This document shows positions 44,937-47,882 of a stretch of DNA of 47,882 nt, piece by piece. Every line of letters begins with the position of its first letter. Position 1 is the first letter of the stretch. The position numbers and the translations under genes are program-made. The notes under the pieces were generated by a model. The model was not told where the DNA came from and ran no database searches. It saw only the letters and a list, made by a program, of their open reading frames with translations. The DNA is from Spirochaetota bacterium (GTDB taxonomy: Bacteria > Spirochaetota > Spirochaetia > Treponematales > UBA12059): contig JAIFMD010000153.1 of assembly GCA_020048755.1 (NCBI GenBank), forward strand, positions 1 to 47,882, in the 5' to 3' direction.

Positions 44937-45673
44937 ATGTGCTCGCCATCGATTGTTCAGGAGAACTTTTATCAGTCGGTGTGGGCCGGGGCTGGGCAAG
45001 CGGTGGACGTGGACCTGAATCGGTCAAACATCCTTACCGCGAGGAAGCTGGACATGGCCATGCGGCAGGCCCTGGCTTTGTAGGCATATCCATAGATGCT
45101 GGTTTCAGGCATGCAGAACGCGTGATGAGCGCTGTAGAATACTGCGTTGCCGAGGCCGGACTGAAGCCGGCGGAGCTGGACCTGCTGGCCTGTGCAGGTG
45201 GCCCAGGATCATTTACCGGCCTGCGTATAGGCATGGCTACTATCAAGGGACTGTCGCTCGGCCTCGGAAAACCCTTCGTAACGGTGCCGACGCTGGACGC
45301 GATAGCCGCGGACTGGGAGGGCTCGGCCAGTATTGTCGTACCTGTCATAGATGCCAGACGATCACGATTTTACTTTGCCGTGTACGATAAGGGCCGCCTT
45401 GTAGCTGGTCCTTATGACGACGGGCTGGCGCGGCTCATAGCGCTGACGCAAGCTTACCCGGAGGTGCTGTTCGTCGGCCCCGATGCAGATTTGCTCGAAA
45501 CGACGGTGTCGGAACGCCCGGGATACAGGATAGCCACAGAGCGGCGACGGTCGCCCATAGCGGCGATGACAAGACTGGCTGTCGGGATTTTTGAACGATC
45601 CGGGCCTGGTCAGTCGGGTTCGGGGCTGGTCTACCTGCGTGCCAGCGATGCCGAGGAAGCGGTGAAGCAATGA
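44933..45673 (+). CDS. tsaB: tRNA threonylcarbamoyladenosine biosynthesis protein TsaB
   Basis: ASKHA-fold non-catalytic partner of TsaD, 246 residues. It starts MNVLAIDCSGELLSVGV and has the hallmark CAGGPGSFTGLRIGMATIKGLSLGLGKPFVTVPTLDAIA, then VVPVIDARRSRFYFAVYD. The loop at about 20-55, where dimer-contact residues usually lie, carries a Gly/His-rich insertion (GRGPESVKHPYREEAGHGHAAGPG) longer than I expect for the family. ATGA overlaps with both neighbours make this a tight operon. Confidence 0.93.
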   Translation: MNVLAIDCSGELLSVGVGRGWASGGRGPESVKHPYREEAGHGHAAGPGFVGISIDAGFRHAERVMSAVEYCVAEAGLKPAELDLLACAGGPGSFTGLRIGMATIKGLSLGLGKPFVTVPTLDAIAADWEGSASIVVPVIDARRSRFYFAVYDKGRLVAGPYDDGLARLIALTQAYPEVLFVGPDADLLETTVSERPGYRIATERRRSPIAAMTRLAVGIFERSGPGQSGSGLVYLRASDAEEAVKQ

Positions 45674-46797
45674 TCGATCCAGACGACGACGGACTGGAAT
45701 TGCTGGAAGTACTCGAAGAACTGGAACCAGACGAAACCCCGGTACTCTTGCCCGAAGAGCCCGGGGAAATACAGCATCCGCTACCGGCGGGACCAATTGC
45801 CGAGATTGTAAAAGACCTGGTCTCATCGTACTCCATAGTACCCCTGCCGATCGCGATCATCGATACATCGCTCTCCTTTCTTTACAGGAACAAACCGTTT
45901 GAAACACTGCTGAGGTCGTTCAACGCATCCAATAGCCCGACTCTGTTCAGTGCTATCGGCCGGTTCCTGGAAGCCGATACAGCCAGAAATCTATATGTAA
46001 ACCTTAAAGATAGCTCAAAAGGCTATAGCTGGAGTGGCACGATACGGCTCAAAGCCAAGGATGCCAGCAACGTTTTTGCAAAGACAACAATAATGCCATT
46101 CAAACCCGAAGGTCTGAATGGTTCGGAGCCACTCGCATGGGTTGTCTTCTTTGATGACGTTACCGAAGAGCGAAGCGGTTTCCTGAGGGGACTGTTCTCC
46201 AGCCTCCTTGAGGCGTCAAAACTCAAGGACAACGACACAGGCAAGCACATCGAGCGGGTAAACCTGTATACCGAACGCCTCGCCAGGGAACTCTACAGGC
46301 TGGGGTCATGGCCTGACGTCGACATCGACTTTATCGAAAACATAGGTTTCCTTGCTGCCATGCATGATGTGGGCAAGATAGGCACGCCTGACGATATCCT
46401 GAACAAGAAGGGACCGCTTGACGAGTTCGAATGGAACATCATGAAGGAGCACACGATAAACGGAGCCTTCATCCTGTCGAGCTACCCGAACCCTATGGCC
46501 AAGCAGATAGCCCAGTCGCACCACGAGTGGTGGAATGGTTCCGGCTACCCGTACAATCTTGTGGGTGACATGATTCCGTTACCCGCCCGCATTGTATCGC
46601 TGGCGGATGTGTACGACGCATTGCGCATGAAACGTAGTTACAAGCTGCCGTTCACTCATGACCGCGCCACGCTCCTCATTGCCGCCGACGCGGGAACTCA
46701 CTTTGATCCCGCGCTTGTAGACGTGTTCAAGAGCATCGCACAGGAATTCGATGAAATCTACGAGAAGAATGCTGACAAGGCAGAAGCCGAGGCCTAG
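45670..46797 (+). CDS. PAS - HD-GYP cyclic di-GMP phosphodiesterase
   Basis: 375 residues. The N-terminus is acidic (DDDGLELLEVLEELEPDE), followed by a PAS domain (about 45-170; PLPIAIIDTSLSFLYRN, WVVFFDDVTEERSG). The C-terminal HD-GYP domain has DTGKHIERVNLYTERLA, the metal-binding HD in LAAMHDVGKIG, and the signature HHEWWNGSGYP. All key residues are present, so it should degrade c-di-GMP. No receiver domain and no membrane span, so the signal is probably sensed in the cytoplasm by PAS. Its placement near the PilZ and flagellar genes suggests motility control. Confidence 0.9.
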   Translation: MIDPDDDGLELLEVLEELEPDETPVLLPEEPGEIQHPLPAGPIAEIVKDLVSSYSIVPLPIAIIDTSLSFLYRNKPFETLLRSFNASNSPTLFSAIGRFLEADTARNLYVNLKDSSKGYSWSGTIRLKAKDASNVFAKTTIMPFKPEGLNGSEPLAWVVFFDDVTEERSGFLRGLFSSLLEASKLKDNDTGKHIERVNLYTERLARELYRLGSWPDVDIDFIENIGFLAAMHDVGKIGTPDDILNKKGPLDEFEWNIMKEHTINGAFILSSYPNPMAKQIAQSHHEWWNGSGYPYNLVGDMIPLPARIVSLADVYDALRMKRSYKLPFTHDRATLLIAADAGTHFDPALVDVFKSIAQEFDEIYEKNADKAEAEA

Positions 46798-47039
46798 CTG
46801 CTGGACTCGCGCCGGTTGATATAACTCTCGTATGCATCGATCATGGCCTGCACGATGATATCCTGCAGTTCGCCCCGCCCCACCCAGTTGTTGCCATCAT
46901 TTATGTACAGGTGCTTCAATTGCCCCTTGGCGTCATCAAGGGTAAACGTCGGATCATCGAATTGCCTGCGCTGCAGGCTTCTTAGCGTATCTGAATAGGT
47001 GTCATCATACGAGGTCTCTTTCCATGCAGTGGTTGACAA
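46794..47039 (-). CDS. 81-residue protein, unknown function
   Basis: The track ORF begins at 47231 but would run through a terminator and the tRNA remnant. A TTG at 47039 with GGAG 5 nt upstream gives a cleaner 81-residue protein (STTAWKETSYDDTYSDTLRSLQRRQFDD...WVGRGELQDIIVQAMIDAYESYI). It is soluble and helical at the C-terminal end. No family recognised. The terminator just upstream means it has its own promoter or depends on read-through. Tail overlaps the HD-GYP stop by 4 nt. Confidence 0.55.
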   Translation of the reverse strand: MSTTAWKETSYDDTYSDTLRSLQRRQFDDPTFTLDDAKGQLKHLYINDGNNWVGRGELQDIIVQAMIDAYESYINRRESSS

Positions 47040-47053
47040 AGTATCTCCATGAG

Positions 47054-47083
47054 TAAAAAGCCGCCCCTTGGGGACGGCTTTAA
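47054..47083 (-). terminator. Rho-independent terminator
   Basis: On the minus strand AAGCCG-T-CCCC-AA-GGGGCGGCTT is a 10-bp stem with one bulge, followed by TTTTT. It lies about 10 nt beyond the 3' end of the tRNA-like segment and ends that transcript and coaX read-through. Confidence 0.85.
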
Positions 47084-47092
47084 GGAAAACTA

Positions 47093-47144
47093 TAGCGGCG
47101 GGGGGGATTGAACCCTCGACACAACGGATATGAGCCGTTTGCTC
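47093..47144 (-). pseudogene. Truncated tRNA-Met(CAT): 3' half only
   Basis: On the minus strand GAGC is followed by an anticodon arm AACGG-CTCATAT-CCGTT (anticodon CAT at 47132-47130), variable loop GTGTC, T-arm GAGGG-TTCAATC-CCCCC and acceptor 3' strand CGCCGCT. The matching 5' acceptor strand (AGCGGCG) and most of the D-arm are missing, and the T-stem has an A-C mismatch. So it cannot be a working tRNA. A near-perfect promoter sits where the 5' half should be and a terminator follows, so an RNA of about 90 nt is probably still made. Confidence 0.75.
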
Positions 47145-47150
47145 TCGGAC

Positions 47151-47179
47151 TTTATACAGAACGCAGGGCTTTTTGTCAA
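47151..47179 (-). promoter_or_regulatory. Consensus sigma-70 promoter ahead of the tRNA remnant
   Basis: On the minus strand TTGACA (47179-47174), 17 nt, TATAAA (47156-47151). The -35 overlaps the coaX stop codon. The predicted start at about 47144 falls at the first tRNA-like bases. It is the best match to the consensus in the window. Confidence 0.8.
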
Positions 47180-47882
47180 CCGCCGGTACCGGGAAAGCCT
47201 TTGGACTCGACACGCCGGTTACGACCTGCAATGGTTACCAATCCGTCCAGGGCCAGATTCGGCATGAAAAGTCCGTAACCTGCCTCAGCCATGACCACCC
47301 TGCCGGTATCATCGCCGGTTCCTATCACCGTCACAGGCACACCCAGTTCGGCAGTCATCAACTCGACAAGTCGGCGCACCAGGCCCCCATACCCCAGAAG
47401 TATGCCAGACTGGAGCGCCTGTGCGGTATTGCGGCCTATGGCGCGCCGGGGCTGATCCAGGCGGATTTCAGGGATCTGGGCTGCCGAGGCACGCAACGAC
47501 CTGGCCGCGGTCTCAAGGCCTGGTGCTATGGATGCGCCAAGCAACTCGCCAGACTGGTCGATTGCCGAAAGGACCAGTGCCGCACCAAAATCCACGATGA
47601 TGCAGGCTCCGGCATGGGTGGCTGTTGCGGCAACGGCCGAACAGACGATATCACTCCCCAGTTCAGAGGGCGTATCAGTGCGTATCTTGAGGCCAGTCTT
47701 GATACCCGGCCCTACAACTGACGCAGCAATGCCAAAAGTCGAGGATATTGCCGCGACGATGCGGGGTGTGAGGGCCGGTACGACGCTCGATATCCAGGCT
47801 TCGGCAAGCCCGAGTTCTGCGCCAAAGCCAGCACGCCGCGCGCTGGCCTCCAGCAGGATGCCGAGTTCATCAGCACTCCGGT
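47176..47882 (-). CDS. coaX: Type III pantothenate kinase (5' end outside the window)
   Basis: First enzyme of coenzyme A synthesis, ASKHA fold. The track shows only the last 139 residues from an internal GTG, but the same frame stays open to the right edge of the window. It reads RSADELGILLEASA, SSVVPALTPRI, VGPGIKTGLKIRTDTPSELGSDIV and IIVDFGAALVLSAI, then LGASIAPGLETAARSL and GRNTAQALQSGILLGYGGLV, all CoaX signatures. About 235 residues are visible; perhaps 20-25 N-terminal residues are missing. The stop codon overlaps the -35 box of the downstream promoter. Confidence 0.92.
   Translation of the reverse strand, partial: RSADELGILLEASARRAGFGAELGLAEAWISSVVPALTPRIVAAISSTFGIAASVVGPGIKTGLKIRTDTPSELGSDIVCSAVAATATHAGACIIVDFGAALVLSAIDQSGELLGASIAPGLETAARSLRASAAQIPEIRLDQPRRAIGRNTAQALQSGILLGYGGLVRRLVELMTAELGVPVTVIGTGDDTGRVVMAEAGYGLFMPNLALDGLVTIAGRNRRVESKGFPGTGG

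Follow-up and report, generated by a model that had tools for sequence, protein, structure and literature searches.

What remains of a tRNA gene when its promoter runs straight into its 3' part? On the minus strand of the window, by which we mean the whole 47,882-nucleotide stretch analyzed here, the order of elements from 47179 to 47054 is TTGACA-N17-TATAAA, the 3' 53 nt of a tRNA-Met(CAT), and an intrinsic terminator. The initial annotation read this arrangement as a possible tRNA-derived small RNA, a decoy or mimic of tRNA, and gave as its alternative that a small deletion, in the cell or in the assembly, had damaged the gene. Below we discuss the anatomy of the locus, its counterpart in related genomes and the state of other tRNA genes in the same assembly. 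Taken together, these point to a truncated elongator tRNA-Met gene that is probably the product of a wrong join in a metagenome assembly.

Anatomy of the truncated gene

The elements of the locus and its neighboring genes are listed below, with four relatives from the same genus (G003, G004, G006 and G007) as reference.

47176..47880, minus strand: coaX, type III pantothenate kinase, upstream of the tRNA part and cut by the contig end (Pfam PF03309, E 1.6e-44; NCBIfam)
47174..47179, minus strand: -35 box TTGACA, from the sequence; same box in all four relatives
47151..47156, minus strand: -10 box TATAAA after a 17-nt spacer, from the sequence; conserved in same-genus relatives
47146..47150, minus strand: GTCCG between TATAAA and the tRNA part, from the sequence
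47145..47146, minus strand: junction at which 32-33 bp of the relatives are absent (leader end and tRNA positions 1-20), from alignment to relatives
47093..47145, minus strand: 3' 53 nt of elongator tRNA-Met(CAT), 100% identical to the intact genes in all four relatives
47054..47081, minus strand: intrinsic terminator of the tRNA-Met gene, stem-loop 47081-47057 and T-run, from its fold; terminator at the same place in relatives
46797..47039, minus strand: conserved ORF of ~80 aa downstream of the tRNA gene, without Pfam or NCBIfam family

The -35 box overlaps the stop codon of coaX, and the terminator has a predicted fold of -18.2 kcal/mol (z = -3.4). Both promoter and terminator were missed under the strict rules of a generic scan for such elements. 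Neither ARAGORN nor Rfam at its gathering score detected a tRNA anywhere in the window. A permissive Rfam search recovers the tRNA family (RF00005) over model positions 10-63 of 71, with 13.9 bits where the cutoff is 29. The complete cloverleaf with both acceptor strands that marks a functional RF00005 gene is lacking at the locus, as the 5' acceptor strand is absent. Known Rfam small RNAs were considered as well; nothing scored above cutoff, and the sub-threshold matches to BjrC1505 and rli32 are at chance level.

The initial annotation had described the promoter, the tRNA-Met(CAT) part, the strong terminator and the missing 5' acceptor strand correctly. It left the strand of the feature unstated, and its estimate of a deletion of about 25 bp was too low, since leader bases are lost in addition to tRNA positions 1-20.

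The ~80-aa ORF has matches in 48 of 59 genomes of the order, and within the family it is often found just downstream of tRNA-Met. An HD-domain ORF on the plus strand (45670-46797) is convergent with it, and their stop codons overlap at 46794-46797.

The intact counterpart in relatives and its copy number

A search with the whole 134-bp unit among 58 relatives found the 53-nt tRNA part with 100% identity in the four same-genus genomes, and the resemblance to tRNA-Met is therefore not due to chance. In these genomes the promoter half also adjoins the tRNA part, but it lies 32-33 bp further off. Do they contain an intact gene between coaX and the ORF, a check suggested at the outset? ARAGORN identifies a complete tRNA-Met in four of four, preceded by the same promoter as in the window and located between coaX upstream and the same 80-aa ORF downstream (copies L120-L123). 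This supports the alternative, damage to the gene through a small deletion that is either real or introduced by the assembly.

The comparison also defines what is missing. In G004 the leader reads TATAAAGTCCGGGCGTCAGGAAT and the complete tRNA comes next, whereas in the window the sequence GTCCG^AGAGC joins a leader of the TATAAAGTCCGGGCGTCAGGAAT type directly to tRNA position 21. Relative to the same-genus genomes, the lost piece comprises the end of the leader, the 5' acceptor strand and the 5' half of the D arm. G007 and G004 are otherwise collinear with the window over 47 kb, and in neither comparison do the aligned blocks contain a larger gap than the one of 32-33 bp at 47145. The window hence shares its neighbors, promoter, 53-nt 3' part and terminator position with the elongator tRNA-Met gene (RF00005) found at the coaX/80-aa-ORF locus of this spirochaete genus, and differs from it by these 32-33 bp on the 5' side. 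In a further member of the genus, G002, a contig ends at the 3' end of the elongator tRNA-Met gene. Named records with an identical 41-nt tRNA stretch all belong to Spirochaetota metagenome-assembled genomes (MAGs).

How many such genes does a genome of this group carry? A pattern for tRNAs with a CAT anticodon was run over 20 genomes, and the matches fall into three classes, which we take from established knowledge to be the initiator, the Ile2 type and the elongator. The broken copy matches the third class of the relatives, which identifies it as elongator Met rather than initiator or Ile2. No relative in this census has more than one elongator tRNA-Met. The window's own genome, G000, contains an initiator (contig C109), an Ile2-type tRNA (C60) and, as its sole elongator, the broken copy. 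The second check suggested at the outset, for another elongator tRNA-Met, found none in this assembly, which is 64.8% complete, and the 5' half of the gene occurs nowhere else in it.

Elongator tRNA-Met is indispensable, as internal AUG codons cannot be decoded without it. Fixed loss of the only copy should therefore be lethal, and we consider such a loss very unlikely unless a second copy resides in the unassembled third of the genome, where the level of completeness would leave room for an intact one.

Other tRNA genes in the same assembly

The draft of G000 comprises 234 contigs with a total of 2.81 Mb, and the window is contig 124; fragmentation and completeness suggest that this genome is a MAG. 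Repeats shared between species are known sites of breakage in metagenome assemblies (PMC9386100), and the literature found on tRNA genes and misassembly offers support of a general kind only. Of 33 tRNA matches in G000, eight are no more than 60 bp away from the end of a contig, against an expectation of 0.33 (p ~1e-9), and two of the matches near contig ends are cut by the end itself.

A similar defect is present elsewhere in the assembly. At C97:20155-20284 (minus strand; loci L031 and L134) a tRNA-Leu(TAG) truncated on its 3' side runs directly into a tRNA-Gly(GCC) without its 5' acceptor strand, so that both genes are damaged and 57-58 bp found in same-genus relatives are absent. The defect is not shared by the relatives: the Leu and Gly parts are 56-58 bp apart in eight of them, seven from the same genus, and both tRNAs are whole at the three same-genus loci printed in full. 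The tRNA-Leu(TAG) gene is single-copy in G000 and in the members of the genus examined. Microhomology of the kind that could account for a simple repeat collapse is seen neither at 47146/47145 nor at the C97 junction. That single-copy tRNA genes were hit twice in one assembly, each time by a clean short deletion lacking microhomology, is more readily attributed to the assembly process than to biology.

A third site is of a different kind. The 3' half of a tRNA-Arg(CCT) at C148:1821-1889 (minus strand; L132, L147 and L156) has an intact copy 1.7 kb away, at 45-118, and the pair shares at least 92 identical bases, downstream terminator included. It resembles a mobile element's attachment site that has been duplicated, or else a repeat that has collapsed, and because of the former resemblance we did not count it in favor of an artefact.

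Wrong join, real deletion or regulatory RNA?

An assembly error would mean that this uncultured spirochaete has one elongator tRNA-Met(CAT) gene with a normal sigma-70 promoter and terminator. The 32-33 bp would have dropped out of it through a wrong join at conserved tRNA sequence, where the G000 assembly tends to break, and the living cell would possess an intact gene. The intact syntenic gene, the limit of one copy per relative, the second tRNA deletion and the enrichment of tRNA matches at contig ends all support such an artefact. Pointing in the other direction are the absence of microhomology at the junctions, the correct assembly of the tRNA-Met gene in many other MAGs of the order, and the 64.8% completeness of G000, which means that another intact copy could exist. 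We infer that the join is artificial, made by the assembler or scaffolder, and not a real deletion. A genuine, recent loss of 32-33 bp in the sampled cells, leaving a decaying pseudogene, appears unlikely, though the clean junction between otherwise normal flanks would fit it. Such a deletion might affect only part of the population or be compensated by a second intact copy, for which the unassembled third of the genome provides space. Against it speak the lack of a second elongator tRNA-Met in every relative examined and the fact that the deletion is shared by none of 293 other genomes of the order. It would also need a second potentially lethal event to account for the C97 defect in another single-copy tRNA gene.

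If the sequence is real, its strong promoter and terminator make a transcript possible, and a functional RNA of ~90 nt, a mimic or decoy of tRNA-Met as initially proposed, has a precedent: a regulatory defective tRNA is known in Bacillus cereus (PMC3399842). We nevertheless regard this proposal as highly improbable. Both signals are those with which the normal gene is equipped in relatives, and the genome would be left without a known elongator tRNA-Met. The truncated form, whose conservation in relatives would be expected of a regulatory RNA, was found in no other genome searched. A pattern search for the junction form returned none in 293 other genomes of the order, the remaining 20 matches being ordinary D arms, TATAGCTCAG. 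For the 61-nt body, predicted folding hardly surpasses that of shuffled sequence (z -1.15). Anticodon arm and T arm, which the RNA had been said to keep, are present in its sequence but missing from the predicted fold minimum; folding says little about the mimic idea, given that the same prediction also misses the cloverleaf of the intact tRNA. In B. cereus, the pseudo-tRNA tRNA-Other lies beside a genomic island, belongs to longer transcripts that were mapped experimentally, and has a deletion phenotype (PMC3399842). The window locus resembles it in being a tRNA-like sequence unusable in translation, but has neither an island nor a conserved truncated form. Equally remote is the scenario in which the deletion is real and fixed, the ~90-nt RNA is stable with a function of its own, and the Met elongator is supplied by an unassembled second copy. 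We assign a comparably slight chance to the 3' part being the remnant of a mobile-element attachment site, or belonging to a split or permuted tRNA as one of its halves. Attachment sites of integrative elements typically consist of a 3' tRNA half standing by itself, and the tRNA-Arg(CCT) half near its intact copy on C148 offers an example in this genome. At the window locus, however, there is neither an inserted element nor an intact partner copy, and the native promoter and both native neighbors are kept. The intact neighborhood contradicts an attachment site; the absence of the 5' half from the rest of the G000 assembly speaks against a split or permuted tRNA.

An assembly error, then, accounts best for the locus, which takes a spurious tRNA-derived regulatory RNA off the list of candidates. 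The same reasoning provides a cheap test for similar finds in metagenome assemblies: one asks whether relatives carry an intact gene, how many copies of the essential tRNA there are, and whether the assembly contains sister defects. Should the deletion be real after all, one would have to ask how internal AUG codons are read in this cell.
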